NCBI GenBank assembly: GCA_902793125.1
Contig: CADBCC010000003.1
Coordinates: 1 to 64,000 of the forward strand
DNA from: an uncultured Ruminococcus sp.
Lineage (GTDB): Bacteria > Bacillota > Clostridia > Oscillospirales > Acutalibacteraceae
Length of the DNA: 64,000 nt
Direction: 5' to 3'
The notes beneath the pieces were generated by a model, which saw nothing but the letters and a program-made list of their open reading frames with translations, did not search any database and was not told where the DNA came from. The position numbers and the translations under genes were made by a program. Shown piece by piece: positions 26,573-62,649 of the stretch. The first letter of the stretch is position 1, and each line of letters begins with the position of its first letter.

Positions 26573-26622
26573 AATGTTGTAAGAAAACAACGTGAAAATT
26601 TGAACAAGAAAGGATGGACACC

Positions 26623-29496: not shown

Positions 29497-30147
29497 TTAT
29501 TTTGCGGTTTGTTTTTTCTTGTTTCTAACGCGGAATACCAGCGCGATAACAACAGGGATATATGTTGCCAAAGGAAGCAGGAAACCGAAGTTTTTCAGAT
29601 TCTCGGACTGAACGAACATATTGAAGATACCGTGGTAAGTAACCGCGAGCATAAGCAGCGAGATCGTTCCGCAGTAGAAAAGCTTTTTCTTTTTCTTTAC
29701 AAAGCTCATACCGTAGCCTACAGCCGCTGTACAGATACCGTGCATTAACGCTGTCGAGAAGCCTCTTACTATCGCCCAGCCGACAGTCACATTATCTATA
29801 CTTGTTACGAGAATATAGGTATTTTCAAACAGCGCGAAACCAATACCCAGCGCGAAAGAAGCCGTTAGAAGCTTGTCGCGGTTATCCGTTATAATAAACG
29901 CGTAAATTAAAATCGGAATAGCTTTTATAATCTCCTCTGTCGCTGGAGTGATGGTGGTCGTAACATACAGCGAGTTATAACCTAAAAGCCTCAGCATAAT
30001 TCCGTTAACCTCGGAAATAAACAGCGCGGAGCTTATACCGATAAGAATAAAAATCATAATTGAGCGCGAAGCCTTCTGAATCAGCGGAAGGCTGAGCAGT
30101 AAGGGAACGAACATACAAATATAGAGAATATAAATCATGCCTTCCAT
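29497..30147 (-). CDS. PrsW-family intramembrane metalloprotease
   Basis: 216 residues, about seven membrane spans, with the family motifs TPATEEIIKAIPI, GFALFENTYI, TALMHGICTAAVGYG and TYHGIFN, which provide the Glu and His residues thought to bind zinc. PrsW-type proteases cut membrane proteins, for example anti-sigma factors. Its start overlaps the upstream gene by 13 bases. The target is unknown; no anti-sigma factor is adjacent. Confidence 0.85.
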   Translation of the reverse strand: MEGMIYILYICMFVPLLLSLPLIQKASRSIMIFILIGISSALFISEVNGIMLRLLGYNSLYVTTTITPATEEIIKAIPILIYAFIITDNRDKLLTASFALGIGFALFENTYILVTSIDNVTVGWAIVRGFSTALMHGICTAAVGYGMSFVKKKKKLFYCGTISLLMLAVTYHGIFNMFVQSENLKNFGFLLPLATYIPVVIALVFRVRNKKKQTAK

Positions 30148-30800
30148 TTTTCAAACCCCCTTACAATCAACGGAATCATCGCTATAGTGATAAGACCGAT
30201 TACACAGCAGCAAACAATAGTTACAAGCTCATTGTTACGGCTCATAGCGAAGCACTCCGCAAAAATCGCAACCTCGTAAATCAAAGCGAGGAGGTTATAC
30301 GGTCTAAGGCATTTTACCACACCGAAATCTACATCGGGGAAAATAAGATGCTTTAGATTAAAGTAGGAAGTCGGAATTATAAACAGGGTCATAACTGCTC
30401 CGAGTATCTTCCATAAAAGCGTAACGTTGCTAAGCAGGAACAAAGAGATATACAAAACAATCGCTGCGCAGGGAGCGGCGAACGAAATTAATCTGTACTT
30501 TTTAAACTCCTTTGATCGATCGTCAAGGAGCGAATCGACGGTTCCGAAGTTGGACGAGAAGAAGAACATCAAGCTTCCTATAATACCCAAAAAGCCGAGC
30601 TGGAAGTTTTCCAAAAGGTTACCGCCTGTCATAAGACGGACGATGTAAAAAAGTCTTCCGAAGGTTATACAACCGAGGGAAAGCGTAATCATCTGCGCGT
30701 AAAGCGGCTTTCTGGGACGGAAGAATTTAATTCCGCCGTAGATAAACCCCGCGAGAGCGCACGCGCAAACAATTATATTTGCAGTCAAATACATACTCAA
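30135..30800 (-). CDS. Polytopic membrane protein of unknown function, partner of PrsW
   Basis: 221 residues with about seven hydrophobic segments and a short basic C-terminus (IVRGFEKWKA). I do not recognise a family. A TTG at 30800 and an ATG at 30794 are both usable after GGAGGTATAT. The 13-base overlap with the protease gene implies joint production; it may be a sensor or a helper of the protease. Confidence 0.6.
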   Translation of the reverse strand: MSMYLTANIIVCACALAGFIYGGIKFFRPRKPLYAQMITLSLGCITFGRLFYIVRLMTGGNLLENFQLGFLGIIGSLMFFFSSNFGTVDSLLDDRSKEFKKYRLISFAAPCAAIVLYISLFLLSNVTLLWKILGAVMTLFIIPTSYFNLKHLIFPDVDFGVVKCLRPYNLLALIYEVAIFAECFAMSRNNELVTIVCCCVIGLITIAMIPLIVRGFEKWKA

Positions 30801-30906: not shown

Positions 30907-30924
30907 AGCAGACAATACTATTTT

Positions 30925-31011
30925 TCTCTATAGGAGTTAGGTAAGATGTTCTTTTCCTTAACACAGTTATGCTTGAATATTTATTCAATTTTTGAGTAAT
31001 TCCCTATAGAG
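30925..31011. other. Long-range inverted repeat CTCTATAGG / CCTATAGAG
   Basis: A nine-base perfect inverted repeat encloses about 70 AT-rich bases in the gap between the surface operon and the PrsW operon. It could be the closing stem of a small RNA or of a 5' leader on the minus strand. No known RNA family is recognised. Confidence 0.3.
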
Positions 31012-31022
31012 TAAAAAGCACT

Positions 31023-31083: not shown

Positions 31084-34000
31084 TTAATTAGGAGTAATGT
31101 AAAGTTTGTTTTCGGTTATTAAAGCGGTATTGTATCCGCCTGTAATTTCCGCGGATTTCTTAACGCTGTAATCATCACGCTGAGCAAACATCGTAATACG
31201 GTTATCGGTAGTCATATGCTTGCTGTCAAACGCTACAGCGCCTTCGTTTAAGTCGATATGAGTTTTGCTGTCGCTGCTTAAAACATATTCCCACGGTTTA
31301 TTAGCCTTACTGCCCGAAGTTGTCGCTTCTAAATCCTTAGAATAAGGAACGTAATCGTTAAGAGCGAATCCGATTTTTGTCAAAGGTGACTTCAAATAGT
31401 CCTTCGGCGTTGTAGAAAGCATTTTATCAGGATCTTTTTTCGCTTTTGCGTTATAGTTATTTACTGCGTACATAGTGGTATAGTACATATAAATCTTGGG
31501 GCCTGTAGTACCTTCGTTAAGGTTTGTGCCCACGAGATTTCCGTTTCCATCCTGTTTAGCCACAGGCGAGTAGTATATCTGATAACGGTCCGTCATTATG
31601 CCTTCGGGATGGTAATCCTCGCCGACGGTACAGACTATGTCGTAAATCGCTTCCTGAAGCTGAGCATCTTTTTCCGCCTCTTTCGCATCGGCAGTTTTCG
31701 CCATATCAATCTTATCTTCGTTAAGCGTAAAGCCTCGATAACCTAAATAGATGTACTTTCCGCCCGCGTCCTTGTTAAGATTGATATTGCAGAATTCCGT
31801 ACAACCCTGCTCGAGTAATTTTAACTGAGCTTCTTTAGCGGTATCTCCCGAAGCGGTAAATATCTTGTTGTAATAAACCGTCTGCGCCTCGTATTTTCCG
31901 TGGATAAAGCTTTCGACACTCGTATCGCCGTAAGGCTTGGAAGTCTTTTTGGTTACAACCTCGCCGTCCTGAAGTTCGGTAACATCGGCGCTGTCAACCA
32001 CGAGAGCCGTAGCTCTTCCCGAAATAAATACATCCTCACTGATGTCAACCTCGGTAAACGGCTTACCTGGAGCTGTACCCTGGTTATGCGAGTAGTAAAG
32101 GAAGTATTTTTTGCCGTTAGACATCGTAAATGATTTTTTGTTGGAAGCGCAGTAATATACCGCGCCGTCAATCTTTATCTGATTAGCGGCAGTCTTATCG
32201 TCAGACTTATACAGCACAAGACTTTTTATCGCCTTATCAGGATCGTCTGTTCTGGCTACGCTGATATAGGCTGCCGGATCGCCTTTCTTAGGGGGTTTAA
32301 TCTTTTCTCCGGCCTCAATGGTCTTATACCACGACTTCGACTGATCGCCCGCTATATCGTAATGAATCATCTCGTCGGAGCCTGATTCCAGCGCTGATTG
32401 CATAGCTATCAAATCAACCTGTGTGTCGTAAGCTTCCAGCTCGTCGTCGTCATCAGATTTAGAATCTTCTCTCGAGGACGCGCCGACGAATATTCTCGAA
32501 ATGTATCTTTGTTTTACGTTCTCGCGTCTGATGTACATATAGACAGGCTTGCCTGCTTTATGGAAATGGCTGCCGTTTTCTTCGTCGGTCTTGCTCACGC
32601 TTCCTTCGTCATCAGTCCACGACGGATAGGAGATATTAAACGCGGTCAGGCAGTGGGGATCTTTTAAGTCCTGAATCGAGGAGAAGCCTCCGCTCGCCTC
32701 AACTCCGTCGAGGGTTTTTTCGCCTGAAATATCACAGGTGATTTTTCCGTTTTCGTTCTTACCGTCATGCTTAGTGTTGCTGATAACTACATCGTGAAGC
32801 GTAAGTCGCGGACGATCCTTTACGTGACCCGTAACATAGAGGTTAGTCGGAAGCCACGGCAACTTGCTGTCAGAGAAATTAAACTTACCCTGCGGCTCTC
32901 TTGTAAAGCCTTCGTATACACAGTCCGTTCCGTCCGAGCTCAAAAGTCCGTTAGTAGTCATATAGGCGTTTTCTGGAGCGACAGCTCTAATAACATATTT
33001 TTCTACATCTATGGTACGCTGAACCGCTACAGACGCCGCAGCGTAGCTCGCGCTTACATTTGGGCCGTCCGAGACTTTATCGGGATAACTAACCGCTTTA
33101 CTGATTGTGTAGGGTAAGTTCGGAAGATACGGCGCTCCCCTAAACATCTGAACATCCGTAAGCGCGCGGTAGGGATTATAGGTCCAGGTATAATACATAC
33201 GCATATATTTTTGGTTACTGTCTGCGATATAACCCTTGTAGAAGAAGGATTCGGCAATGTTTACGCCCTTTGTGGCGCTTGCTTCCTCGACATTAGGCAT
33301 AGCCGACAGATTGTCGAACATCTCGGTAGCAAGTGCCTCGGTGGCATCATGGTAACCGGCTCCCGTCTCCGAATCCATAGCGAACGCGAAGAATACGCCC
33401 GAGAGGTATTTTGTGCCCTCGGTATAGGTTTCTTCAGGCTCGTAATACAAATAGCTTCTCACGCTTTCCCATTTATTATCCTCTTTGGTAAGGTAGCCTG
33501 TATAACTGTAGGTGCGAATTTGATGTCTTCCAAGTCCCCCGTGTCCCGTGATGGTGTAACGACTGGTAGCGAAGTTATAGGGCAGTCCGCTAAAGGTGGT
33601 AACCGGTTCCCAGCCCGCCTTAGCTTTATCCTGGCTCGATACTATATGCAGGGATCCGACCTCGATAGGCGTTCCCGCGTTTTCGTACTTAGTATAGAAT
33701 AATCCGTCCAGATCGCCGGGGTAATCCTTGTTATCCGACTTTGAGTCCGCGGGGAAGCCGAGACTTCCCGCGAAGGAGTAGCTCAAATCTCCGAAAAGGA
33801 TACTTCCGCCCGAGCTGTATGTCGCTACTCTTATATCTCGAATCGCGTTTTTGGGATTAGAAGTTACCTTGTATCCGATATAGGTGTACTGTTCTTCTTT
33901 GAGCTTTATCTTTCTGGCTTCGGGACAAAGATTCTGGTCTAATATTTGATAACCATCGCCCTTATCGATAATCTTACTCTTAGCGATTTCGGGGCTTTTA

Positions 34001-36135
34001 CCCGATCTGACAATTAAATCTCCGTAATAGAGCTTTTCGTCGTCATCTTCGTCATCAGTCGTTTTATCGCTCGACTCGGAAGCCGGAGTAGTTCCGCCGT
34101 CGGCGGTGGTTACGGGACGGTTTTTGATTGATTTTTCGGTATAATAATGAACATAAATACCGTGTACATCGTCGCTCTTTGCGCCGTTGTTACAGTTACC
34201 CGGGTTTACATGACCGAAGTAACTTACGCAATCATAGCCCTTAACCTTAGCGCTGTCGCCGTAGACAATATTAAAAATATTACCGTCCTCGTCCGCGCGA
34301 ATGGCGCTTCCCGATTTAGGATCATCGGAAACATACATACATACCCAGCCGTGCTGAGCCTCATAGGCGTTAAGGTCGGCAATACGCCCTTTGTTATCCT
34401 TGACCGCCTCGTAGGTAATGTTTGTGTTGTTTCCCTTTACTTCTCTTGTATCGACCACAAAATCGGGCATATCGGTATATTTCTCAGCCTTATGCTTCTT
34501 AATATATTCGACAATCAATGTTACGATATAGAAAATAATAGTTACCGCTAAAATCCACAGCGAGAATATACCTGCCCATTCGCTGATTATTGATGAAATC
34601 GCAATCACCTTGGTAGCGACCGATGACGCCGTGGCAGATACAATCGCGGTCGCGGATTTAAGAGCCACTATCGCTCCCGCGATACCATATTTTCCCCCGA
34701 GGAATGTAAGTACCGTAATTGCGGAGCTTCCTATACCAATCCATTTAAATACATCGTTTACGGTTTTCTTAGCTTCCTCCCAATTATCCGTCGCGTTCTC
34801 GTCGAGCAAATCGCCCGCGGATTGCAGTCGGATAGCGTCTGATGTAAACGCGACTTTTTTATCAGCCATCTCGGGATTAGCGTTCATCCAGATTGAGACC
34901 GTTTCAGATCCCACCAGCTCTTTCATTTTGTTTCTGACTTTATCGATTACATTCTCCGCTTCCTCGGCCTTTGTGTTTTCGCCGAGATTAGATATAACCG
35001 ACATAATGCCCGCCATACCTACCATTTCACGCTGAGCGTAAGTCATTGAGTCCAAAATAGGATAGAGCTTTCTGAGATCTACTTCTCCGCTTGTTTGTTT
35101 ACCGATTTTAACGAGATATTCGCCGAGCGGCATATCCTCATAGGCTTCGTACTCATCGAGGAAGTTATACGCGTTAACATACGCCATCGCGTTATCCGCG
35201 TCGCTCACCTTATCGGCGTTCTCCACTACTTCATCCATGTCGGCGTTCTTAACCTTATCGACGTATTTGTTTTCATTAAAACCAGCTTTACCGTTTTCGA
35301 AATGAGTAGTGAACTGCTGTAGCTGTTTGAAAAACGCTTCCGCTAAATCGTGGTAATCCTTGTCGTAATCGTTGAGCTCGTCTTCGGAGCTGTTCTCGTC
35401 TTCGAGGATATCCCAAAGCTTGCTTTCTTTAACCTTGGAAGCCCAGGTAACGTCTACTCTCTCGCCTGTTTCCTCGTCGGTCTCCTTTTTCATCGGTGTA
35501 AGACCTGTGGAAAGGAAGCTTGTTATAGCGTTTATAGTGCCTGTACTCGCGCGTGAGATTATCTTCGCGAAGAAAGCTGCGTCCGCTTTTTTGCTTATGA
35601 TATATTCTCCCAGCTTAGCGTTATTCGCTTCGGGAATATTGAAAAGGTTAAGTCCCTCGTAGGCTTCAATCGCCTTGGGGCTTTTTTTCTTGTAGTTAAA
35701 CGCAAATTCAGTAGCCGACGCGTACATTGTTTCAGCCGCGCCCGAATTTGACTTTTCAAGCTGTTCGTTAGCCTCTTTGTAGTCTTTGATTTGATAGCCG
35801 TCGTTCATTTGCAGAAGCTTTATATCGTACAGAGCCTTGTTCTTGTCTTCGGTGAGCTTATATCCCATATAGACAACATCCTTGCCCGTGCCTTCGTTGA
35901 GGTTTTTCTGAGCGCAGATATAACCCTCGCCTTCGCAGAGCTTTTTAGCTTCTTCTTCCGAATCAGCCTGGAACGTCTTTATCTTTGAGATATAATACAC
36001 CTTTGAGGCGTCGGCAGCTTTTCCGACCATCTGCGCGGGGTATTCTACAAAGAAACATACAACCAGCATAATAGCTATCATTTTAATAGCAAAGAAAATG
36101 GCTTTTCTTAAATTATGTTCTTTTGTACTAATCAT
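31084..36135 (-). CDS. Giant membrane protein with MABP-like (beta-prism) repeats
   Basis: 1683 residues. An N-terminal hydrophobic segment (about 12-33) is followed by a MABP-like unit: VYYISKIKTFQADS, then LNEGTGKDVVYMGYKLT and ALYDIKLLQ. A helical region follows; hydrophobic helices at about 470-545 (WIGIGSSAITVLTFLGG to WILAVTIIFYIVTLIVEYI) probably cross the membrane. Further units include LYYGDLIVRSGKSP (about 697) and LNKDAGGKYIYLGYR (about 1440), with degenerate ones between. MABP domains of eukaryotic MVB12 share the DLN-G-GG-YIYL-YK pattern and bind membranes. The ATG at 36135 overlaps the upstream stop by eight bases; an earlier start at 36183 lacks support. It is a paralogue of the 40830 gene product (both carry a TSDA-R-Q motif). 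Confidence 0.75.
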   Translation of the reverse strand: MISTKEHNLRKAIFFAIKMIAIMLVVCFFVEYPAQMVGKAADASKVYYISKIKTFQADSEEEAKKLCEGEGYICAQKNLNEGTGKDVVYMGYKLTEDKNKALYDIKLLQMNDGYQIKDYKEANEQLEKSNSGAAETMYASATEFAFNYKKKSPKAIEAYEGLNLFNIPEANNAKLGEYIISKKADAAFFAKIISRASTGTINAITSFLSTGLTPMKKETDEETGERVDVTWASKVKESKLWDILEDENSSEDELNDYDKDYHDLAEAFFKQLQQFTTHFENGKAGFNENKYVDKVKNADMDEVVENADKVSDADNAMAYVNAYNFLDEYEAYEDMPLGEYLVKIGKQTSGEVDLRKLYPILDSMTYAQREMVGMAGIMSVISNLGENTKAEEAENVIDKVRNKMKELVGSETVSIWMNANPEMADKKVAFTSDAIRLQSAGDLLDENATDNWEEAKKTVNDVFKWIGIGSSAITVLTFLGGKYGIAGAIVALKSATAIVSATASSVATKVIAISSIISEWAGIFSLWILAVTIIFYIVTLIVEYIKKHKAEKYTDMPDFVVDTREVKGNNTNITYEAVKDNKGRIADLNAYEAQHGWVCMYVSDDPKSGSAIRADEDGNIFNIVYGDSAKVKGYDCVSYFGHVNPGNCNNGAKSDDVHGIYVHYYTEKSIKNRPVTTADGGTTPASESSDKTTDDEDDDEKLYYGDLIVRSGKSPEIAKSKIIDKGDGYQILDQNLCPEARKIKLKEEQYTYIGYKVTSNPKNAIRDIRVATYSSGGSILFGDLSYSFAGSLGFPADSKSDNKDYPGDLDGLFYTKYENAGTPIEVGSLHIVSSQDKAKAGWEPVTTFSGLPYNFATSRYTITGHGGLGRHQIRTYSYTGYLTKEDNKWESVRSYLYYEPEETYTEGTKYLSGVFFAFAMDSETGAGYHDATEALATEMFDNLSAMPNVEEASATKGVNIAESFFYKGYIADSNQKYMRMYYTWTYNPYRALTDVQMFRGAPYLPNLPYTISKAVSYPDKVSDGPNVSASYAAASVAVQRTIDVEKYVIRAVAPENAYMTTNGLLSSDGTDCVYEGFTREPQGKFNFSDSKLPWLPTNLYVTGHVKDRPRLTLHDVVISNTKHDGKNENGKITCDISGEKTLDGVEASGGFSSIQDLKDPHCLTAFNISYPSWTDDEGSVSKTDEENGSHFHKAGKPVYMYIRRENVKQRYISRIFVGASSREDSKSDDDDELEAYDTQVDLIAMQSALESGSDEMIHYDIAGDQSKSWYKTIEAGEKIKPPKKGDPAAYISVARTDDPDKAIKSLVLYKSDDKTAANQIKIDGAVYYCASNKKSFTMSNGKKYFLYYSHNQGTAPGKPFTEVDISEDVFISGRATALVVDSADVTELQDGEVVTKKTSKPYGDTSVESFIHGKYEAQTVYYNKIFTASGDTAKEAQLKLLEQGCTEFCNINLNKDAGGKYIYLGYRGFTLNEDKIDMAKTADAKEAEKDAQLQEAIYDIVCTVGEDYHPEGIMTDRYQIYYSPVAKQDGNGNLVGTNLNEGTTGPKIYMYYTTMYAVNNYNAKAKKDPDKMLSTTPKDYLKSPLTKIGFALNDYVPYSKDLEATTSGSKANKPWEYVLSSDSKTHIDLNEGAVAFDSKHMTTDNRITMFAQRDDYSVKKSAEITGGYNTALITENKLYITPN

Positions 36136-37651
36136 TTTCTTCACCGCCTTCCGCAGCTTTTTTCTTTCTCTTTTTATATACAATAAGAATTATCGTACCG
36201 ATAATTCCGGCGCATCCGACAATAAGTATCGCGTAGAAACCGCCCTCGCTGAATATAGATGAGGTTATCATTGTAGATTCAACCTGTCTTTCATCCGCAA
36301 AGGAAGTATAAGCATCGTCCGCTGTAAAATACTCCGTCTGATAACGGCTCATCCATTCGGACATCACCACTCGGCCGCTTGCGTTTGTGCCGACATGAAC
36401 ATCCGAACCTCTGTACAGTCCGCCGTTTATGATACGGGCTGTTCCCAAATTGCCGTTCTCAAGCAAGAGATTGGAAGCGCCTTTTCCCTTTTTACTTTCG
36501 TTATCTTTAATAATCATCTTACCCTTTAGGGTTATGTTGTAACGGCCGTCGACATATACTCCGCCGCCGTAGCCCTCGGAGCTGTTGCCTGTTATCTCAC
36601 AGCTCGAAAGAGCGACGTTGTCGTCGTTTATATATATCGCTCCGCCGTTCTTTTTTGCGGAGTTGTTACGGAACTTGCACTCGTGGAACACTACAGCCTC
36701 GTTATGCTCGGGGTTATCGTTGATGAAAACCGCTCCGCCTTCCTCGGTAGCTTTGTTTCCCGCGAAAGTACATTTGTAAGCGGTTATCTTAGTACCGACG
36801 TATTTGGATATATCGTGAGCACTTCGAATTGCTCCGCCCTGTTCACGACTTTTATTTCCCGAGAATACTACATTATTCAAATTAATAGTACCGCGTTCCG
36901 AGAAGATAGCTCCGCCGTCGTCCTCGCTGTAGCAGTCGTCTATCTTCGCGTTGGAGATATTTATTACACCGTTGCGCATATATATCGCTCCGCCGTAACA
37001 TTCATCCGCGCTGTCGATAGTTTTACAACCGTAAATTCTTCCGCCTGTCATAGTGAATTTAGTATTAGAGGTAGAGCCCGCGAGATAAATCGCTCCGCCG
37101 TCCTCATCGGTCATACAGTCGTAAATAGTTCCGCCTTTCAGACGGAATTCGCCGCCCTCGTCAATCTGAACCGCGCCGCCAGTGTTACTGCTCGCGCCGC
37201 CTGTAATAACGCCGCCTTTAATGCCGTCGTAGCCCTCGGATTTCGGGTTGCTGTCACGAATCGTAAATACTGTTTCACCGTTCACACGGAAAACTTCGCC
37301 TTCAGACTGCATTTTGTGGTCTCTGTTACGTTTAACGTAATGACCGTTGAGGTCAAGCGTGAGGTGCTGCCCTGTATAAGCCGTAAGGAGTTCATCCTCA
37401 ACCCAGTCGGTTCCCAGAGTTATGACAGTTTCTGTTCTACCTGTATAATCCGTAGAGGATACCGCATGTTCCCAAGCTTCTTTGGGCGAGTTGTATCTTG
37501 ATATTGAAAGCTGTTTATTGCCTTCCATAAGCTCTACGGTAGCGCCCGAGGTAACGGTTTTGGCGTCAACCGCGCCTACAGCCGTCGCGGAGAATGCCGT
37601 AAGGAGCAGGCACACCGCGGGAACCGCGGCTAAAAATTTCTTAATTTTCAT
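36128..37651 (-). CDS. Membrane-anchored Pmp-like right-handed beta-helix protein (507 residues)
   Basis: Signal peptide (1-30), then parallel beta-helix coils from about 130 to 410 with many GGAI/GGAV motifs paired with F-x-x-N (FSGNKSREQGGAI, FAGNKATEEGGAV, FRNNSAKKNGGAIYI), the pattern known from chlamydial polymorphic membrane proteins. A stretch STMITSSIFSEGGF precedes one membrane segment (about 468-490) and a basic/acidic tail. The coils would sit outside the cell. RBS AAAGGAG lies ten bases before the ATG. The gene is 20 bases after the larger beta-helix gene and overlaps the MABP gene that follows. Confidence 0.85.
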   Translation of the reverse strand: MKIKKFLAAVPAVCLLLTAFSATAVGAVDAKTVTSGATVELMEGNKQLSISRYNSPKEAWEHAVSSTDYTGRTETVITLGTDWVEDELLTAYTGQHLTLDLNGHYVKRNRDHKMQSEGEVFRVNGETVFTIRDSNPKSEGYDGIKGGVITGGASSNTGGAVQIDEGGEFRLKGGTIYDCMTDEDGGAIYLAGSTSNTKFTMTGGRIYGCKTIDSADECYGGAIYMRNGVINISNAKIDDCYSEDDGGAIFSERGTINLNNVVFSGNKSREQGGAIRSAHDISKYVGTKITAYKCTFAGNKATEEGGAVFINDNPEHNEAVVFHECKFRNNSAKKNGGAIYINDDNVALSSCEITGNSSEGYGGGVYVDGRYNITLKGKMIIKDNESKKGKGASNLLLENGNLGTARIINGGLYRGSDVHVGTNASGRVVMSEWMSRYQTEYFTADDAYTSFADERQVESTMITSSIFSEGGFYAILIVGCAGIIGTIILIVYKKRKKKAAEGGEEND

Positions 37652-37671
37652 AATCAGTCTACTCCTTTCTA

Positions 37672-40600
37672 TTATGATTTTCCGTTTTGTTCTTTTTGTT
37701 TTTTCTTTCTTACCGAGTATATAACAGCCGCAGCGATAGAAATCAGTAGTACGGCTATACCGATATAGATTATAATCGTGCCTTCTGAGAAGATAGAGGC
37801 TGTCGTAGAACCTTCAATCTCTTTCCAGATAGCGTACAGCTTAACCTTTTCGCCTTTTTTAGCGGTAAGATTAAGTACTTCCTCTTGGTCTTGGAACATT
37901 TTGCCTGTACCGTCCGCGCTGGTGTTCCAGCCTACGAACTCGTAGCCGTCACGCTCCAAGGCGTTCTCGGGGAGAGATTCTTTTTTGTCGTAATAGAGCG
38001 TCAAATTGCTCATATAACCTGTAACACCTCTACCGTTCTTATCAAAAGAAACTTTATAGTTATTGGGGTTAATCTGTGCCGTTAGGGTAACGGATTCATT
38101 TACAAAGGTAAAATCGATACTTCCGTCAGAGTTTTTCTTGTGTATTCCGACGCCCTTATTAGTGTACTTTAAGATATAGTGACCTAAAGGAGCCTCTACG
38201 GGCGGAACGTGAACATCATCCTTTTCGTAGCCTTCCTTATAAAATATCTCCTTACCGTCAACTACAACGGAAAGATGTAACGGGAATACGAATCTAACAT
38301 TAACTACCTTAGTGATTTTCGGGTAGACATTACTTCCCGATTTAAAGGTGATATAGTAGGTGCTCATATGATTGGTTTTATGGGTACTGGTGAGCTTCCA
38401 CTTAGAACCTGTTTTATCGACCGCCTTAAAGGTATCTTCGTCGGGATAAGAAATGTTTTCCATAGAGGTCTTATCGCCGTCAAACTTCCATTTAAGACCG
38501 TATTGATCGACTGCCGCCACGGTAATTATACCCGACTGGTCTATCTCGATAGTACCTGAGTTTGCGCTCTTATTAGGACCGTCAATATCAAATCCGTCGG
38601 GGTCGGGACAAGGATACTTATCGCCGCCGATATTAATCTTTGTATTCTTTTCCTCGGTACTCCAAACCTTATGGTCTACGTGATGGTTACAAACGTTAAT
38701 TCCGTTGATGTAAATCTTAACGTCACCCTGGAATCTACGCGAAGTCCACAAGGAACCGAATTTTGTTTTAAAGTTTACTGCAGAGGGGAAACAGTCGGAA
38801 CCGCAGTCGTACTCATAGGAGTAGCCTTCACCATCGTCGTCAATGGATTCATGGAAATCGCCCGAGGTATTGAGATGGCGTTCGCCGCCTGTTCCTCTGT
38901 TGTCTTTTCCGTAAATCTCAAAATACGCCCAATCCCACCAGTCAACGTCGTCGGTGACCTTAATATCCACCTTAATTTTATAACTGCTGTGGGTTGACTT
39001 TAAGCCCGCGAGCAAGCGTGCTTCCTTGCAATTCTTATCGCGGCTGATCTTACATTCGTTATTATCGCAGTTAAAAACATTTGCGGGAAGGTTGTCGTTA
39101 TGTTCGCCGAAGCCCGTTGTAATATCGCTGTTAACTCGGTTTGTCGGAGGTACGATACCGATTTCCGAACCACTCGATAATCTTCCTGTAATCTTAATGT
39201 TTCGGTAATCTCTTTGTTTTATATTGTTGGAATTACCGCCCGCCGTATTGTCTGTAATTCTTGTTATTCCGCCCGCGAGGATAATGGAACCGTCATGGAC
39301 ATAAACTCCGCCGCCGTCGCGCGCGGTACAGTTAACGATTTCGCTTTTTTCAATCGTAAGCGAATTGGATGAATCCATATATACTCCGCCGCCGCAATTA
39401 CCCGCCATACAGGCTTTAATATTACAACTATTTAACTCGACAGTACCGTGCGAATTTATACCGCCGCCGTTTGTATTACAGGAATTCTCGTTCATATCAA
39501 CGTTCTTAAACTCAAGGTTTGTACCTGAGTTGGCCCATACGCCGCCGCCTGCCGAAGAAGCAATATTTTTATCTATTACTGTATTCGAGACAGTGAGCTT
39601 ACCATTACGGATATTAATTCCCGCGCCTGTAGCTGCTGTATTGTTGCTTATCTCGCAGTCATTTTCCAATACGGTTTTACCGTTCGTATCAATAAATAAA
39701 CCGCCGCCCCATTGGGTTACGCCGTTGCCTGTAATAGTACATTTTGAGAGCGTCATATCCTTATGGTTAGTAATTCCGCCGCCGTTAACCGCGTTAGTAT
39801 TCTGCGTTACCGACGTCTTGTTGAGCGAGGCGTCTCCTTTTGACCAGATACCTGCGCCGCCGCCCTTTACAGAGTTACACGTCAGTTCACAATTGTTAAG
39901 ATCAACTGTTCCTAAGTTATAGATACCGCCGCCGTCATTCGCGGAATTGACCGCAAATTTACATTTATTCATCGTAGCGGACGCGCCCGAATCAACATAC
40001 AGACCGCCGCCGTTTCCGCTTGCTGAATTGTTCTCAAACTGACAATCTTTAAACTCTGCGGTTCCGCCTTTGAGGAATACTCCGCCGCCTTGCTTTGCCT
40101 TGTTTCCGACAATACTCATTTTCTGCATAACAAGCTTGCTGTTGTCGCTGACAAAAACAGCGCCGCCGGAAGCAAAGCCGTCGTTAGCTCCCGTAATCAT
40201 TGAAGCGTTTTCGCCGCCTTTTCCTTTAATAATCAGCGTACTTCCCGAACCAACAGAAATTATACCTTCGCCTGAACTTTTTGCGGCGTATATTGTATGA
40301 CCGTTTGTATTGATTATGTGGGTTTTACCATCGAGAACATAAATTGTATTTTTAAGCTCGATATCGCCCGAAAGATTAACAACCCTATCGTTACCGAGAA
40401 CCGCCTTGAGGGTTTCCTCGGAATCGGCGTTACCCTCGGTGTACATATCCTCAAAATACATAATCAGTTTTTTAGAGTTTTTAGAATCGGCTTTTGCGTC
40501 GATAAGCATAGCTCTACGATCGAAAGTCATTTCCGTTTCGGCTTTGACTTCTAATTTATTATTGAAGTAAGCGTCAAAGGTTTTATATCCGCCATCCTCG

Positions 40601-40794
40601 TCATCAGCGTAAATCACCGCTCCGTCCGCTATAATATCACCTGCTTCAATCTCTCCTACATACACGCTCGAGTTTTCATCGTATTCTTCAGCGAAAGCGG
40701 ATGTTATACCGATATTCGCTATCATTCCCGAGCATAAAAGGAGAGAAAGTATCGCAGACAAAACCCGTGTGGATAATGATACTTCTTTTTTCAA
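37672..40794 (-). CDS. Membrane-anchored Pmp-like beta-helix protein (1040 residues)
   Basis: Signal peptide, then about 14 beta-helix coils (about 160-570) with GGGV/GGAI and F/I-x-x-N motifs (FENNSASGNGGGLYV, ITGNGVTQWGGGLFI). A beta-sandwich-like region follows (VDWWDWAYFEIYG onward), then Ig-like segments, an InlB-type repeat (KVSFDKNGRGVTGY to YEFVGWNTSADG) and a C-terminal anchor preceded by TTASIFSEG. The GTG at 40803 touches the ribosome site AAAGGAA; the TTG at 40794, nine bases away, is preferred. It lies 35 bases after the first MABP gene. Confidence 0.82.
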   Translation of the reverse strand: MKKEVSLSTRVLSAILSLLLCSGMIANIGITSAFAEEYDENSSVYVGEIEAGDIIADGAVIYADDEDGGYKTFDAYFNNKLEVKAETEMTFDRRAMLIDAKADSKNSKKLIMYFEDMYTEGNADSEETLKAVLGNDRVVNLSGDIELKNTIYVLDGKTHIINTNGHTIYAAKSSGEGIISVGSGSTLIIKGKGGENASMITGANDGFASGGAVFVSDNSKLVMQKMSIVGNKAKQGGGVFLKGGTAEFKDCQFENNSASGNGGGLYVDSGASATMNKCKFAVNSANDGGGIYNLGTVDLNNCELTCNSVKGGGAGIWSKGDASLNKTSVTQNTNAVNGGGITNHKDMTLSKCTITGNGVTQWGGGLFIDTNGKTVLENDCEISNNTAATGAGINIRNGKLTVSNTVIDKNIASSAGGGVWANSGTNLEFKNVDMNENSCNTNGGGINSHGTVELNSCNIKACMAGNCGGGVYMDSSNSLTIEKSEIVNCTARDGGGVYVHDGSIILAGGITRITDNTAGGNSNNIKQRDYRNIKITGRLSSGSEIGIVPPTNRVNSDITTGFGEHNDNLPANVFNCDNNECKISRDKNCKEARLLAGLKSTHSSYKIKVDIKVTDDVDWWDWAYFEIYGKDNRGTGGERHLNTSGDFHESIDDDGEGYSYEYDCGSDCFPSAVNFKTKFGSLWTSRRFQGDVKIYINGINVCNHHVDHKVWSTEEKNTKINIGGDKYPCPDPDGFDIDGPNKSANSGTIEIDQSGIITVAAVDQYGLKWKFDGDKTSMENISYPDEDTFKAVDKTGSKWKLTSTHKTNHMSTYYITFKSGSNVYPKITKVVNVRFVFPLHLSVVVDGKEIFYKEGYEKDDVHVPPVEAPLGHYILKYTNKGVGIHKKNSDGSIDFTFVNESVTLTAQINPNNYKVSFDKNGRGVTGYMSNLTLYYDKKESLPENALERDGYEFVGWNTSADGTGKMFQDQEEVLNLTAKKGEKVKLYAIWKEIEGSTTASIFSEGTIIIYIGIAVLLISIAAAVIYSVRKKKQKEQNGKS

Positions 40795-40829
40795 ATGGCT
40801 CACTTCCTTTTTTAATATGTGAAATTAAA

Positions 40830-43286
40830 TTATACAGGTTTTGTTTCTCTTCTTTTTCGTATAGAGAAGCTTAAAAGTAATGTGAACGCGCTTCCCACGA
40901 GTAATCCCGCAACCACGCCGATGGCGAGCGATCCGCCCGAAAAGAGCGAGCCGGCGGCTGTCTGTTCCTTAACGGAAACCGTATCGGTCTTAAAGTAGAC
41001 GTATGTACCGTCGTAGGGGTCGTTATAGCAGTAAGGCTTATGTGTAAGATTAAATGCCGAGCCGCTACCGAACATATGGATACCTTTCTCGTAGCCCTCG
41101 GGAGCGTCGCCCTTACCCATTTTAAGCTTTAATGAATCAGCTAAAATCGGCGTGCCGTTCTCGTATTTTACGCTGTAGAGAGCGAGCCATTCCTGACCTA
41201 CGTCGCCGTTTAAATCGTTTCTGTCCTCAAGAATCTTATAATTTTCTTTCTCAACGTCGCTCTTACCCTCGGTTCTGTTACAGGGCACTACCTTATAGTA
41301 AGCGCTCTGGTTTTTAATCATAGTCTCTTTGCCCTTACTGTTTTTAGCTGTGATATCGGTTTTTTCAACGATATACTTCGGAACAGGGGCAAATTTCACC
41401 TTGTAGTAATCTATCAGTTCTTTAATTGTGGTGTAGATTGAATATCCCGCTAAAATCGCCGTAATTACCGTAAGACCCGCGGTGAGATACTTACAGATAG
41501 TCGACTTGAGGGAAGCGCTCTTTGCCGCGCTCTCAAATTCAGCGTGAGTTTTTTCATAATTCTTAAAAGCTTTCCTTGCAATATCGCTTTCATCACCAAG
41601 TTGTGCATATTTATTCACATAGCGATGTGTTTCACCAGTGACAGGGTCTATTTCCCCTTTTATACCATACGTAGCCCATTTTTTATCTGCCGTCATCCAT
41701 GCGCTCTTCAGCTCATTAAGATGTTTAAGTGATTGTTGATAAACAGCGTTCGCATTACCGGCATTTATCAGCGCCTTATTGAGCGCAATCGCCGAACCTA
41801 TCGCCGCAATTCCCGAAGCCGCCGTACAGCCCCAGAGCGCGATACCTAATTTACTTAACTCAAAGGTAGGCTCCGCCTCCTGAGCGCTCGCCTGAGCGCG
41901 TAAAGCGTCGGACGTAAGGGCTACGCCGCCTCTGTCGTAGATTTCACGGTTAACACCCTGATAAATTGAAGCGGCGGAAACACCCTCCATTTTCGCTTCT
42001 TTAAAGCCGTTCTCGTCGGTAATCGCCATAAGGAACATATCCTTAACGGAGAGGAAGTCGAGACCCGCTATCTGTCCCGCTGTAAGAGCTTTTACAATCG
42101 GATAGAGCTCGCGGATACTGTCTTTATCGTCGAACTCGGACTTATCTCTCTCGAAGAAATCAAGCAGAGTTCCGTCGCCGTATTCGGTAGCGTCAAGATA
42201 ATCGTGTACTACGATATCCTCAGCCGCAATACTGCCCTTAACCATATTCGCCTCGGCTTCGTACGCGTTGGACGCGGCGTCTATTACTTCTTCATCGGTT
42301 GAGTTTTTGGATATTTCAGTGTCTCCGATATCTTCTACATCTTCTACGACTTCGTCCGCTTTATCAAGCGCTTCGTCATAGTTAGCGAGAACGTCGGTAA
42401 AGGCGTTCCATTTATCGAGAATTCTCTTAGCGTCGTCGTTGTACTTCTTATCGAGCGCCGAGTTGATTTCGGAGGGAGTGAAGCTCGGGTTATCTTCTTC
42501 AAGCTTTTCTTTCATAGCGTCGAGGTCGGTTTTAACGAATCTGTCGAGCCATGTATTATTCTTAGAGTCGGAAGCCTTGGTGAGCAGTGTTTCGAGTAAC
42601 TGCACCGCCTCGCCGTTACCCTGCATTAAAAGGGTAAGGATATCGCAGTGGTTGTTCTTCTCCGAATCGGAGAGAGCGTTGTAAGCGGCATCGCCCATCT
42701 CAAACTTAGTCTTATTAACAAGAAGGTCGCCTAACGGCTTGCCTTTTGTATCGTCGTCGGTGAGCTTATTGAGTAAGGTTCTGTAGTAATCGGCTCTCTT
42801 ATAGTTAATAGAGTCCTTGGGTTTGTTAAGATTTTCGCGGTACTCGGTAAGAGTGGCGATAAATCTTTTTACGAAAGGCTTAATCTCGGTGTTCATATGG
42901 TCGTCCATAAGCTTTTCGTATTCCTGGTAGCTGTAACCGCCGTTCATATTCATTACGGCTAAGTCTGTTACAGCGTCGTTTACGTCATTGGTGGTCTTGT
43001 AACCGAGGTAAACTATCTTCTGATTCGGGCCCTTTTTCATAGCGCTGGAGGTTCCCGCGTCTTTGTTAAGGTCGGCGTAATTTCCTTTATCGTCGGTAAG
43101 GATTGTATATCCGCCTGACTTTAACTCTTTCGAAGCTTCGTCGGAGGTCTCGCCCATTCCGACCTTTACCTCGCTTATGTACTTTTTACCGCCGTCAGCC
43201 GCCGAAGCAACTAACTGAGCGGGAGCGCCTATCAGCATCGTCATACAAAGTATTGCCGATGTAATTGCCATAAGTATTTTTTTCAT
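40830..43286 (-). CDS. Membrane protein with N-terminal MABP-like unit, first gene of the surface operon
   Basis: 818 residues. Signal peptide (MKKILMAITSAILCMTMLIG to ASAA), then a MABP-like unit (about 33-105): KYISEVKVGMGETSDEASKE, YADLNKDAG, KIVYLGYKTTNDVNDAVTDLAV. A long helical, acidic region follows, then hydrophobic segments at about 479-505 and 589-629 and a C-terminal anchor (about 783-808) after AAGSLFSGG. It is paralogous to the 1683-residue protein (both have ELYPI, TSDA-R-Q and a central hydrophobic pair). The ATG at 43286 follows GGGGGA; the frame upstream is non-coding. Confidence 0.75.
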   Translation of the reverse strand: MKKILMAITSAILCMTMLIGAPAQLVASAADGGKKYISEVKVGMGETSDEASKELKSGGYTILTDDKGNYADLNKDAGTSSAMKKGPNQKIVYLGYKTTNDVNDAVTDLAVMNMNGGYSYQEYEKLMDDHMNTEIKPFVKRFIATLTEYRENLNKPKDSINYKRADYYRTLLNKLTDDDTKGKPLGDLLVNKTKFEMGDAAYNALSDSEKNNHCDILTLLMQGNGEAVQLLETLLTKASDSKNNTWLDRFVKTDLDAMKEKLEEDNPSFTPSEINSALDKKYNDDAKRILDKWNAFTDVLANYDEALDKADEVVEDVEDIGDTEISKNSTDEEVIDAASNAYEAEANMVKGSIAAEDIVVHDYLDATEYGDGTLLDFFERDKSEFDDKDSIRELYPIVKALTAGQIAGLDFLSVKDMFLMAITDENGFKEAKMEGVSAASIYQGVNREIYDRGGVALTSDALRAQASAQEAEPTFELSKLGIALWGCTAASGIAAIGSAIALNKALINAGNANAVYQQSLKHLNELKSAWMTADKKWATYGIKGEIDPVTGETHRYVNKYAQLGDESDIARKAFKNYEKTHAEFESAAKSASLKSTICKYLTAGLTVITAILAGYSIYTTIKELIDYYKVKFAPVPKYIVEKTDITAKNSKGKETMIKNQSAYYKVVPCNRTEGKSDVEKENYKILEDRNDLNGDVGQEWLALYSVKYENGTPILADSLKLKMGKGDAPEGYEKGIHMFGSGSAFNLTHKPYCYNDPYDGTYVYFKTDTVSVKEQTAAGSLFSGGSLAIGVVAGLLVGSAFTLLLSFSIRKRRETKPV

Positions 43287-43352
43287 AATATGGATTCCCC
43301 CTATATAATTTTTGTCATTATAGCTGACTTCGGGAACATTATAACACACTTT

Positions 43353-43373
43353 GGGGGACAAAAGGGGGACAAA
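43353..43373 (-). promoter_or_regulatory. Direct repeat TTTGTCCCCC x2 upstream of the surface operon
   Basis: On the minus strand TTTGTCCCCC occurs twice with an 11-base period, followed by a TATAAT-like box (rc of 43338-43343). The -35 is poor, so an activator binding two half-sites on one face of the helix is plausible. Confidence 0.5.
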
Positions 43374-43474: not shown

Positions 43475-45127
43475 ATGGAAAACACAAGTAATAAGAAAAG
43501 TCTTGCTTTCAAAACAATGCTACGGCTGTTTATTATCGTTATCGTTGTATCGCTTATCGCCTCCGCTGCCATAGGAGTATTCATCTATTCCGAAATGTCG
43601 GAAACGTTGCGTGACTATACATATGAAGCGTCGCTTACGGGTTCGAAAGTCGCGTCGTCAAGGATTATTACAGACAACAGAGGAAGCGTTGTAAAATATC
43701 TTAAAACAAAAAAAACGGATCTCGACTACGAAAACCTGTTAGATAACCTTAAAATGATTACCGAAAACTACGACTTGCAGTGTTGCGATATTTTCGTTCC
43801 GCACGAGGATCATATTACCTATATTATGTCTACCGACGATAAAAAACCGGGACAGTCCCTGGGCAAGGAAGCTTCATATTACGGAAGCGAAAAGAAATAT
43901 ATAATGAAAGCGCTTAACGTATCTCTAAAAAGCGAGTTAGACTACGAAAAATCGCCGAGAAAAAATCTCTACACCGACGACGTAAAAAAAGGTGTGGATA
44001 TTATGACGTATTATATGCCTGTGCTCGATAAGGACGGAAAACCTGCGGCTATCTTTTCGGCAAGCTATTCTGTCGATTTTTTTGTCAAAACGAATTGGGA
44101 ATATATTTTAGAATTGATGGGAATATCGCTCGCCGTTATGCTCGTTTCGGTAATTATCTTCTATTTCTCTATCCGAAAGCACGTCATAAAACCTGTTACC
44201 AAGCTGACTAAATCCGTACGTTTGATAAAAGAGAGCGTTAAAAACGGACAGACTGTGGCAACGAATATCCATACCGATGACGAATTTGAGGAACTCGCGA
44301 CGGCGTTCGAGGATATGAACAAGGATTTAATCGGCTACATTGACGAAAACACGAAAATCACCGCCGAAAAAGAGCGTATCGACACTGAGCTGAACCTCGC
44401 GACTAACATTCAATCGGGTATGCTGCCCGACAAATTCCCGGCATTCCCCGACAGGAACGACTTCGATATTTACGCCTCGATGACTCCCGCTAAGGAAGTC
44501 GGCGGAGACTTCTACGACTTCTTTATGATTGACGAAAACAGGCTGGGAGTCGTTATGGCTGACGTTTCCGGCAAGGGTGTGCCCGCGGCACTGTTTATGA
44601 TGTATTCTAAAATACTGCTGAAAAGCTACACCCTGATGAAGCAGAGCCCCAAGGCGGCGCTTGAAGAAGTTAACCGTCAAATTTGTGAAAGCAACCCTGA
44701 GGAAATGTTTGTGACTGTATGGCTGGGCGTGCTGGATTTAAAAACAGGCGTATTTACCGCAGCCAACGCGGGACACGAAAAGCCTGCTGTGAAGCAGGCT
44801 GACGGAAGGTTTGAGCTTTATAAGGACATACACGGTATGATGGTCGGTTATATGGACGGAATCCCTTTCAGAGAATACGAGCTAAAGCTCACCAAGGGCG
44901 CAAAGCTGTTCCTTTATACCGACGGCGTTGCCGAAGCAACTAACGCAAACGATGAGCTCTTTGGCACGGACCGTATGATTGAAGCGTTGCGCACTGCCGA
45001 AGATAAGACACCAAAGGATGTACTCGAGGCAGTTAACACTGCGGTCGATGAATTTGTCGGCAATGCTCCGCAGTTTGATGATTTAACAATGCTGTGCATT
45101 GAGTATAAAGGTAAAAAAGAGGATTAA
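43475..45127 (+). CDS. Membrane sensor PP2C phosphatase (RsbU/SpoIIE type)
   Basis: 550 residues: membrane segment (about 17-39), an extracytoplasmic sensor region of about 170 residues, a second membrane segment (about 212-232), a HAMP-like linker (RKHVIKPVTKLTKSVRLI) and a PP2C domain from about 300 (AKEVGGDFYDFF, MADVSGKGVPAALFM, YTDGVAEATN, PQFDDLTMLC). Such phosphatases dephosphorylate a STAS antagonist so that it frees a sigma factor from its anti-sigma kinase. The STAS gene is next. It is divergent from the surface operon, which makes the operon a plausible target. The paralogue at 60281 has a nearly matching catalytic domain. Confidence 0.9.
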   Translation: MENTSNKKSLAFKTMLRLFIIVIVVSLIASAAIGVFIYSEMSETLRDYTYEASLTGSKVASSRIITDNRGSVVKYLKTKKTDLDYENLLDNLKMITENYDLQCCDIFVPHEDHITYIMSTDDKKPGQSLGKEASYYGSEKKYIMKALNVSLKSELDYEKSPRKNLYTDDVKKGVDIMTYYMPVLDKDGKPAAIFSASYSVDFFVKTNWEYILELMGISLAVMLVSVIIFYFSIRKHVIKPVTKLTKSVRLIKESVKNGQTVATNIHTDDEFEELATAFEDMNKDLIGYIDENTKITAEKERIDTELNLATNIQSGMLPDKFPAFPDRNDFDIYASMTPAKEVGGDFYDFFMIDENRLGVVMADVSGKGVPAALFMMYSKILLKSYTLMKQSPKAALEEVNRQICESNPEEMFVTVWLGVLDLKTGVFTAANAGHEKPAVKQADGRFELYKDIHGMMVGYMDGIPFREYELKLTKGAKLFLYTDGVAEATNANDELFGTDRMIEALRTAEDKTPKDVLEAVNTAVDEFVGNAPQFDDLTMLCIEYKGKKED

Positions 45128-45170: not shown

Positions 45171-45467
45171 ATGGAAATAATAGTAAACAAAAACGGAACC
45201 GAACTTACAGTATGTCCCGTCGGAAAACTTGATACCGCAACATCCCCGCAGCTTCAGGCAGCTATTGATGAAAATATCAGCGGAGTTACTGATTTGACCT
45301 TTGATCTTAAAAAGCTGGCATACCTCTCGTCTGCTGGGTTGAGAGTGCTGATGAGCTCCCAAAAAACCATGAACAAGCAGGGAAATATGAGGCTTAGCAA
45401 CGTCAACGAAGATATCATGGATATTCTGGATATGACAGGTCTTACAGACGTGTTTACAATCGTATAA
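45171..45467 (+). CDS. STAS-domain anti-sigma factor antagonist (RsbV/SpoIIAA-like)
   Basis: 98 residues. GKLDTATSPQLQAAI and LAYLSSAGLRVLMSSQK are STAS signatures; the Ser of LSSAG is the usual phosphorylation site. In the dephosphorylated state it should bind an RsbW-type kinase. No such kinase is adjacent here; the one at 59871 could serve both modules. RBS AAGGAGAG is close to the ATG. Confidence 0.9.
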   Translation: MEIIVNKNGTELTVCPVGKLDTATSPQLQAAIDENISGVTDLTFDLKKLAYLSSAGLRVLMSSQKTMNKQGNMRLSNVNEDIMDILDMTGLTDVFTIV

Positions 45468-45486: not shown

Positions 45487-45522
45487 AAACTGCCGTAGGT
45501 CAAACGACTTACGGCAGTTTTT
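45487..45522 (+). terminator. Bidirectional terminator between STAS and response-regulator genes
   Basis: ACTGCCGTA and TACGGCAGT pair; TTTTT follows on the plus strand, and AAA-flanked on the other it overlaps the end of the minus-strand regulator. Confidence 0.85.
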
Positions 45523-46321
45523 GTATGTAGTTTTCAAGATGATATATATAGGTTTCAGCCCAACTGTACTGGTTGAGGAATTCGCCTCGGTACAGGTTTT
45601 GAGCTTCGGGCTTGCGCTCGAGATAATCATAGTAATCGCATTTAATCAGATTTGTGTCTACCGAATAGGCGTTTCGGCGGTGGTGCAAGACTTCTTCTAA
45701 CCCATATTTAGAAAGGTCTTTTTTTAGCGACTGGACTGCTTTTTTTAAGTGCTCAAGGTTTTTCTTATCGTCGCTGCCTTCAAAAAGATTGGTGCAAATC
45801 TCTCCCCTTGTGGCAGAAGTTCCCCTCAAGCATACAAGATACGCGAACAGCTCCTTACCCTTTTGGCGTGTGAACCTAACCGCTTTTTCATCGGTAAACA
45901 CCTCAAAATTCCCGAAGCATTTTACATCAAGCTTTTTTGAATCGGTTTGAGTATGGTCGACAGGTGTTCTCAGGTTAGATAGGGCTTCCCTAAGCTCATT
46001 GTCGTCAACAGGCTTTAGCAGATACGCGCTGACATAGAGCCTTAAAGCGTCCAGCGCGTATTCCCTATGCGCCGTAACCATAATGATGTTAATATTGGAA
46101 TCGAAGCTTTTGATTGTACGCGCAAGCTCAAGCCCTGTTTTTCCGGGCATATTAATATCTAAAAACGCTACGTTTATCTTATTGCTTTTAATCTGCTCGA
46201 CAGCAGTGTCGTAATCCTGTGCAAAAAAGAATACGTTGTCGTCCGAGGGAGCCGCTCTTTCAACGGCAAATTTCAAATCGTAACGCATACCCATTTCGTC
46301 GTCCGCTATAAGTATATTCAT
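45509..46321 (-). CDS. Response regulator with C-terminal SARP/OmpR-like winged helix
   Basis: REC domain (MNILIADDEMGMRYDLKFAV, phosphoacceptor Asp in FLDINMPG, Thr in VTAHRE, Lys in LLKPVDD), then from about 138 a winged-helix segment KCFGNFEVFTDEKAVRFTRQ and KGKELFAYLVCLRG, as in clostridial regulators with a SARP-like DNA-binding part. 270 residues from the ATG at 46321, nine bases after GGAG; ATG 46327 is too close to it. It lies 15 bases after the kinase gene and is its obvious partner. Confidence 0.88.
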   Translation of the reverse strand: MNILIADDEMGMRYDLKFAVERAAPSDDNVFFFAQDYDTAVEQIKSNKINVAFLDINMPGKTGLELARTIKSFDSNINIIMVTAHREYALDALRLYVSAYLLKPVDDNELREALSNLRTPVDHTQTDSKKLDVKCFGNFEVFTDEKAVRFTRQKGKELFAYLVCLRGTSATRGEICTNLFEGSDDKKNLEHLKKAVQSLKKDLSKYGLEEVLHHRRNAYSVDTNLIKCDYYDYLERKPEAQNLYRGEFLNQYSWAETYIYHLENYIQKLP

Positions 46322-46336
46322 ATTCATCAACTCCGT

Positions 46337-62319: not shown

Positions 62320-62550
62320 TTATATAGTATCTTCTTTTCTCTTTCTAAGCTTGGGAAGCATAATGAGCGTGGTGATGAGAATTCCCGGCGCTAATCCGCC
62401 GATACCAGCGAGAGCGAGGAAGCCCGCGTTAAAGGTAGACGCTGTAGCCGTAAGAGCGTTCGCGTCATCCTTCCGGTAGAGATACATCCCTTTATTTCTA
62501 TCGTCGAAGCAATAGGCACCATCGTCAAGCTGTACGGCGTTTTTATTGTT
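62320..62550 (-). pseudogene. C-terminal remnant of a MABP-type surface protein
   Basis: The minus strand reads NAVQLDDGAYCFDDRNKGMY, LYRKDDANALTATASTFNAG, then a membrane segment (LALAGIGGLAPGILITTLIM) and LRKRKEDTI before the stop. The order YCxxD...MYLY...TAxxSxFxxG-TM-basic tail matches the end of the 40830 gene product (PYCYNDPYDGTYVYF, AAGSLFSGG). A TAG closes the frame about 15 codons upstream. It lies directly before the STAS operon. Confidence 0.6.
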
Positions 62551-62649
62551 AAATAATATTATAACCTAAAGCTAAACAATAATCAACGCCATATCTACAT
62601 TTTAATTGTGCAATTCTTTTCTTCTTTTAAATACACAAAAAAGAATAAT

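Follow-up and report, generated by a model that had tools for sequence, protein, structure and literature searches.

Myxosortase, an enzyme of the CPBP family, has been shown to cleave a C-terminal tag, and its E-E and H..N residues are named in that work (PMC11980579). A second membrane-embedded protease, PrsW of Bacillus subtilis, is described as the site-1 protease for an anti-sigma factor and as similar to Rce1 (PMC9263693). The β-prism of Mpf2Ba1, a perforin-type protein, is described with three DLN metal-site motifs per prism. Chlamydial Pmp proteins end in an autotransporter barrel.

Here, an island of gut clostridia is described in which several large proteins with predicted export signals carry a common C-terminal tail and are accompanied by a membrane-embedded protease of their own. 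The stretch of DNA analysed (the window; 64,000 nucleotides) is from an uncultured Ruminococcus sp., and the features discussed below are collected in Table 1.

Gene Organization of the Island

The first-pass annotation of the window had recognized four close-set genes on the minus strand, and their order, strand and ends proved correct. By direct reading of the sequence, the start codon of gene D is ATG 43286. Gene C starts at TTG 40794, 35 bases past D, with GTG 40803 as an alternative; gene B starts at ATG 37651, 20 bases past C; and gene A starts at ATG 36135 with an 8-base overlap of the B stop. The expectation that all four products would bear signals or membrane anchors was borne out by a signal-like hydrophobic segment at each N terminus.

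The four-gene observation is real and was understated. Its architecture holds, with MABP-type β-prism proteins (A and D) around two Pmp-type β-helix proteins (B and C), but a PrsW-family protease and its 7-TM partner downstream, and a group of regulators and an operator upstream, had been overlooked; the protease, its partner and the regulators travel with the set and alter what the tail likely means. The possibility that the four genes are the entire system was rejected, given that MP221/PrsW and the regulators travel along in relatives. The window also contains, at 26614-29280 on the plus strand, a gene whose 888-aa product opens with a signal-like segment and has a ubiquitin-like domain (PF00240, E 2.3e-10) ahead of a linker rich in S/T/P/E.

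Table 1. Coordinates of the island features within the window
Feature	Position	Strand	Description
PrsW-family intramembrane protease	29497..30147	-	PF13367, 3e-16
MP221, 7-TM membrane protein	30135..30800	-	AF2 pLDDT 92; 13-base overlap with PrsW
Gene A	31084..36135	-	1683 aa; signal-like segment, MABP-like repeats, hydrophobic stretch 472-547, no C-terminal tail
Gene B	36128..37651	-	507 aa; signal peptide, Pmp-type β-helix repeats, C-terminal tail
Tail of B	36131..36271	-	TSSIFSEGG-TM-KKRKKK
Gene C	37672..40794	-	about 1040 aa; signal peptide, Pmp-type repeats, Flg_new repeat, C-terminal tail
Tail of C	37675..37806	-	TTASIFSEG-TM-RKKK
Gene D	40830..43286	-	818 aa; signal peptide, MABP-type β-prism split by helical insertion (about 116-636), C-terminal tail
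Tail of D	40833..40958	-	AAGSLFSGG-TM-RKRR
Putative operator/promoter	43338..43373	-	TTTGTCCCCC-T-TTTGTCCCCC (11-base period), 9 bases, TATAAT
SpoIIE-type phosphatase	43475..45127	+	PF07228, 3.1e-48; divergent
STAS-domain protein	45171..45467	+	STAS domain
Response regulator	45509..46330	-	PF00072; no Pfam match in C-terminal half
Histidine kinase	46337..47623	-	PF06580, PF02518
D-gene remnant	62329..62559	-	C-terminal end with tail, 81-codon frame

β-Prism Proteins A and D

A and D had been proposed to be paralogues with MABP-like repeats. The two sequences align by blastp with E 2.6e-26 (23% identity, 571 columns), and both the structural model of D and the profile of A (6e-5) match the β-prism of Mpf2Ba1. 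Two clear DLN motifs were located in D (72-74 and 691-693), and a third was not found as DLN. The Pfam scan reported no family above cut-off in either protein; for D, plain Foldseek returned nothing at E <= 0.001, and its profile gave a single irrelevant match (2.6) against PDB sequences. Most structure matches of D cover the helical hairpin 475-627 and are uninformative on function.

It has to be considered whether A and D are contact-dependent membrane attackers, the β-prism binding a target membrane that the hydrophobic helical insertion would then enter. The likeness of the D prism to a perforin-type protein and the hydrophobic stretches within the insertions (482-500 in D and 472-547 in A) are consistent with such a role. 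We nevertheless consider it quite improbable: Pfam, which could miss remote forms, reported no MACPF domain for either protein, the insertion of D resembles only generic long helices, and the hydrophobic helices may merely anchor the proteins in the producer.

When the single D sequence was used as the query, matches were obtained in 14 of 148 genomes, its own included, all from the same genus among the 44 searched. Profile searches reach relatives beyond these: of 7,996 candidates scored, taken from proteins predicted in public genomes and metagenomes, 524 matched at E <= 1e-5, so that there are at least this many.

β-Helix Proteins B and C

The assignment of B and C as Pmp-like β-helix proteins is clear for B, in which the repeats match PF02415 (3.5e-14) and TIGR01376 (1.7e-16). 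For C, the TIGR01376 score of 16.5 bits exceeds the cut-off of 15, and the PF02415 score of 17 falls under the cut-off of 20.6. The PF02415/TIGR01376 repeats are common to B, C and the chlamydial Pmps. By contrast with the barrel of the latter, no C-terminal outer-membrane barrel was found in B or C, both of which end in a single TM segment with a basic tail.

A Common C-terminal Tail

The similar tail noted on three of the four proteins is present in D, C and B and absent from A, a gene that is found in every full set. In D, C and B alike, a motif is followed by a hydrophobic segment and then by an end rich in K/R; across loci, the consensus is approximately [TAS]-[AGS]-S-x-F-[STNG]-x-G, followed by TM and K/R. 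A search of the whole draft genome with the tail profile gave four strong matches, of which three (C, D and B) are themselves members of the model and the fourth is the D remnant (62329-62448); the next best match had an E of 0.001. The remnant (62329-62559, minus strand) adjoins a second SpoIIE/STAS pair in the window. A tail remnant in genome G033 adjoins counterparts of the two genes at the window's remnant (STAS, 89% identity; SpoIIE, 96% identity), and the D remnant is therefore common to different species.

Carriers of the tail comprised the D β-prism proteins, the β-helix proteins, a 500-660 aa type and a Cna_B-repeat protein. Proteins of the 500-660 aa type have the tail QASVFGxGG and appear MABP-like by eye, three of nine matching the D profile weakly (1.5e-5 to 1.2e-3). 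The Cna_B-repeat protein belongs to a distant genome (L137), has the tail SEVGSVFGGAG and is encoded directly upstream of MP221-PrsW. A tripartite C-terminal signal is thus present on several unrelated proteins, as in tail-sorting systems.

Within the 80 loci described below, 78 system members had a C-terminal TM tail, and the motif was present in 61 in its loose form and in 52 in its strict form. The remaining 17 tails included eight with S-x-F-S/T and no G, seven with T-x-M or Q-S-F, one with S-M-I and one (L160, 1304 aa) without any form of the motif. Outside the system class of the script, 22 further proteins had a single-TM tail. Half of these bore the motif, namely two B/C fragments, eight proteins of the 500-660 aa type adjoining the MP221/PrsW pair, and the L137 protein; three of the other 11 belong to the L160 island, and one of these three has S-x-F minus the rest.

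In three loci (L027, L030 and L161), the F of the motif is replaced by M/I/V/L in the majority of D tails, one of the four in L027 retaining it, and the β-helix tails have I. Given that these loci are related, the shift may be a single event. Similarity of tails within the same locus gave a p value of 0.034 over 17 loci, in a weak test for which some motifs were mis-picked by the script.

Anchoring by LPXTG was rejected, as no LPXTG was present among the 44 tails inspected; the genome of the window holds 5 sortase matches. Identity with a known CTERM family was likewise rejected. An NCBIfam scan of 41 tails gave weak, scattered matches, with LPXTG_anchor in 14 (best E 0.001) and GG_III-CTERM in 6 (best 9.4e-5), as judged from 25 of the 47 families, without cut-offs.

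MP221 and PrsW

PrsW scores 60 bits with PF13367 (curated cut-off, 23.5) and is the sole match to this family in the genome. Eight residues (E71, E72, K75, E108, N109, H136, H172 and N176) are invariant in 37 aligned PrsW sequences. The E-E and H-x3-N residues are of the catalytic type and would presumably serve in catalysis here. Seven membrane helices were counted in the AF2 model of MP221, and a fold search gave nothing significant (best match bacteriorhodopsin, E 0.089, TM 0.59).

Genes A and MP221 are separated in the window by 283 bases with a hairpin, and one transcript across the two is therefore not assured. Scans for promoters and terminators gave scores that did not clearly exceed those of shuffled sequence. 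The gap exceeds that of G076 by about 190 bases and contains, at 30921-31016, 14-base inverted arms (TTTTTCTCTATAGG) 68 bases apart, a stretch that is possibly a small inserted element.

Two arrangements elsewhere deserve mention. In L024 (930-1884), PrsW is followed immediately, within the island, by genes for a membrane protein of 133 aa and for an ECF sigma factor, which may form a sigma/anti-sigma pair. In L159 and L167, MP221 fragments adjoin A and B genes, with an intact MP221-PrsW elsewhere in the genome (L120/L121 and L108, respectively), which suggests that the pair is able to act in trans.

Distribution and Co-occurrence

A scan for MP221 in genome_contigs (84,980 species) gave 84 relatives, of which 80 were kept as loci. 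The hosts are gut clostridia (Ruminococcus, Eubacterium, Oscillospiraceae, Lachnospiraceae and the like), and many of the records are from rumen or other ruminant gut samples. MP221 and PrsW occur together in 75 of the 80 loci and overlap by 13 bases in 49 of these 75, other values being partly due to longer open frames. The five loci without the full pair are three contig ends (L090, L147 and L154) and two with MP221 fragments (L159 and L167). A tail or an A/D relative was present within the examined flank in 50 loci and in none of the other 30.

The proposal that the four genes form a unit is largely upheld by these loci. Homologues are mostly not scattered singly, as D-C-B-A or D-B-A sets recur; a single D gene, on a short contig, was found in G059. 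The order is D copies-C-B-A-MP221-PrsW in L023, L026 and L028, kinase-regulator-MP221-PrsW-four D-B-A in L027, MP221-PrsW-517aa-B-A-D-D in L029, and MP221-PrsW-133aa-ECF sigma-463aa-B-A-D in L024. In Eubacterium xylanophilum ATCC 35991 (L116), the genes for a kinase, the 7-TM protein, PrsW, two D proteins, a regulator and a tailed β-helix protein were found in the stretch examined, to which this list applies and which does not include gene A.

These gene orders bear on an alternative explanation, in which the four proteins would be adhesins of the ordinary membrane-anchored kind, the tail a stop-transfer sequence that was inherited and passed by recombination from one gene to the next, and PrsW not involved. 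Local recombination is indeed indicated by arrays in which tandem D genes have almost the same tail, and some tails weakly resemble the generic anchors found in the NCBIfam scan. That PrsW-7TM and the surface genes remain together across several orders, and that the motif is also present on the Cna_B protein adjoining the pair, makes this explanation unlikely.

Among 150 genomes of the genus, PrsW and a strong tail (best E <= 1e-8) were each found in 26 and occurred together in 20 (Fisher p 1.1e-14), a co-occurrence that mostly reflects one conserved cluster, given that the tail model was built from the cluster's own proteins. Weak tail matches (1.1e-6 to 5.5e-6) in G084, G158, G170, G194 and G207 were excluded from the strong-tail count, and PrsW was present in none of these five. 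Mismatches were observed in 12 genomes, ten of them on broken or partial contigs. A tail without PrsW was found in G035, G044, G059, G150 and G202, where contigs of 5 to 13 kb hold part of the set only, and as a remnant in G033. PrsW without a tail was found in G005, G057, G082 and G087 (contigs broken inside gene A), in G039 (contig end) and in G153, in which the pair is intact and no strong tail was detected.

For 20 lone-pair loci, picked by eye and all within the 30 counted as lone, a tail was found elsewhere in the genome at E <= 1e-4 in 13, several of which are second copies and not independent cases, given that the island lies on another contig (for example, L108 with L167 and L128 with L090). 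No such tail was found in seven; of these, L137 has a sub-threshold tail beside the pair, and the pair in L148 looks broken.

Regulators and a Putative Operator

The TATAAT of the putative operator/promoter ends 51 bases ahead of the D start codon. In the 2.0-Mb draft genome, the pattern TTGTCMCNNNNTTGTCMC is matched exactly at a single site, the D operator. A similar repeat pair precedes D copies in the genus and a D gene of E. xylanophilum, as well as β-helix genes in L117, L121, L125 and L126. By script, the operator was counted upstream of 10 of 61 D genes, 4 of 48 β-helix genes, 1 of 40 A genes (a match without C-runs) and 0 of 147 MP221/PrsW genes; among 573 other genes, it was counted three times, twice in the island locus L133 and once in the lone-pair locus L131. 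Many D copies are operon-internal, and the counts are depressed by mis-set starts, that of the window included. In L133, the direct-repeat operator lies ahead of a gene for a 244-aa lipoprotein-like protein (L133:2437) and of a contig-end gene (L133:8260), hinting at a wider regulon.

Where the regulator is at least 49% identical to that of the window, the operator was found in five of eight loci (L110, L116, L121, L125 and L126), and with a more distant regulator type in none of 12 (all within the 80). We infer that the neighbouring kinase/regulator pair controls the operator and that the regulator binds the repeats. The C-terminal half of the regulator is one that we take, by eye, to resemble SARP-type DNA-binding domains.

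Within 6 kb of the MP221/PrsW pair, a histidine kinase was found in 21, a regulator in 20, SpoIIE in 15 and STAS in 11 of the 80 loci. In L127, L130, L131, L134, L148 and L154, a SpoIIE-type phosphatase gene lies within 113 bases of an MP221 or PrsW frame in a flank without surface genes.

Such clustering would fit a role of the pair in signal transduction, the 7-TM protein sensing the state of the envelope and PrsW cleaving a membrane-bound regulator of the surface genes, with the tail a plain anchor. A function of this kind is described for B. subtilis PrsW (PMC9263693), the ECF sigma factor and 133-aa membrane protein of L024 are consistent with it, and the pair occurs without a detected tail in some genomes. 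However, no ORF of the window was recognized as a sigma/anti-sigma pair beside PrsW, the operon already owns a kinase, a regulator and an operator without a second exact copy, and the presence of one S-x-F-S-x-G motif before the TM segment on unrelated bodies would be left unexplained. A signalling role is accordingly considered somewhat unlikely.

Discussion

The reading that we favour is of an island for predicted surface proteins in which PrsW and its 7-TM partner would recognize and cut the tail of D, C and B, leading to release or re-anchoring; we hold the case for it to be about evenly balanced. D, C and B would be exported through their predicted signal peptides, and the tail would insert in the membrane with its basic end inside. 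The PrsW-family protease, with the 7-TM protein, would then recognize the S-x-F-S-x-G tail and cut it in or at the membrane, upon which the proteins might leave the cell surface or become re-anchored to it. The β-prism proteins may bind lipid or glycan surfaces, and the exposed complex could have as its target the membranes of adjacent cells or some other surface. The adhesive or membrane-remodelling function suggested in the first-pass annotation is neither favoured nor disfavoured by these results. The fuller version, in which PrsW/7-TM is a new class of two-part sorting enzyme that reads the S-x-F-S-x-G tail and sheds or re-anchors kinase-controlled split-β-prism and β-helix proteins acting as a membrane-binding complex against gut neighbours, is possible but doubtful.

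Tail processing is favoured because the invariant residues of PrsW resemble those named for myxosortase, because otherwise unrelated proteins have the tail, placed immediately at the membrane, and because PrsW has been likened to Rce1 (PMC9263693). The pairing of MP221 with PrsW in nearly all loci, most often with the same overlap, the co-occurrence of PrsW with the tail, and the joint alteration of D and β-helix tails in L027, L030 and L161 argue in the same direction, as does the finding that, among unclassed tails, the motif sits on B/C fragments, on the pair-adjoining 500-660 aa type and on the L137 protein. Against this, the tail profile derives from system proteins, so that the co-occurrence partly restates operon conservation, and seven of the 20 lone-pair genomes, together with the intact pair of G153, lack a corresponding tail. 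The anti-sigma role of B. subtilis PrsW, the ECF sigma factor in the L024 island, the frequency of regulator genes beside the pair, the hairpin in the A-MP221 gap, the weak same-locus test and the tail-less gene A also weigh against it.

If the proposal is correct, the island represents a new bacterial means of sorting or shedding surface proteins, and PrsW joins the processors of C-terminal tags. The principle, so far that of sortases, exosortases, rhombosortases and CPBP proteases, would thus extend to a family whose described role is anti-sigma-factor proteolysis, and a role would be provided for proteins of 818 and 1683 aa without a Pfam family above cut-off. The idea is testable, since E. 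xylanophilum ATCC 35991, a named and cultured organism, carries the island genes listed above.

No description of this system was found among the literature matches listed. The parts belong to known families; the combination, the split β-prism and the PrsW-linked tail were absent from those matches. Compared with the β-prism of Mpf2Ba1 and its relative, the MABP domain of MVB12B, the prism of D is split by a largely helical insertion of some 520 residues, and D, in which no MACPF domain was seen, bears a C-terminal tail. B. subtilis PrsW has PF13367 in common with the protease of the window, and the B. subtilis control genome also gave a match. Whereas the former is described as an anti-sigma protease (PMC9263693), the latter adjoins tailed, predicted surface proteins.

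The GlyGly-CTERM/rhombosortase system likewise pairs an intramembrane protease with a tail family (PMC3237569). It differs in its rhomboid serine protease and its Gram-negative hosts. To our knowledge, rhombosortase has no 7-TM partner. There is also a likeness in design to MYXO-CTERM and the myxosortase MrtX, for which a tripartite tag (motif, TM helix and basic end) and an intramembrane protease with E-E and H..N residues are described (PMC11980579). By comparison, the protease of the island is of the PrsW family (PF13367), its tag is without an invariant cysteine, its hosts are gut clostridia, and its enzyme gene overlaps that of a 7-TM partner.
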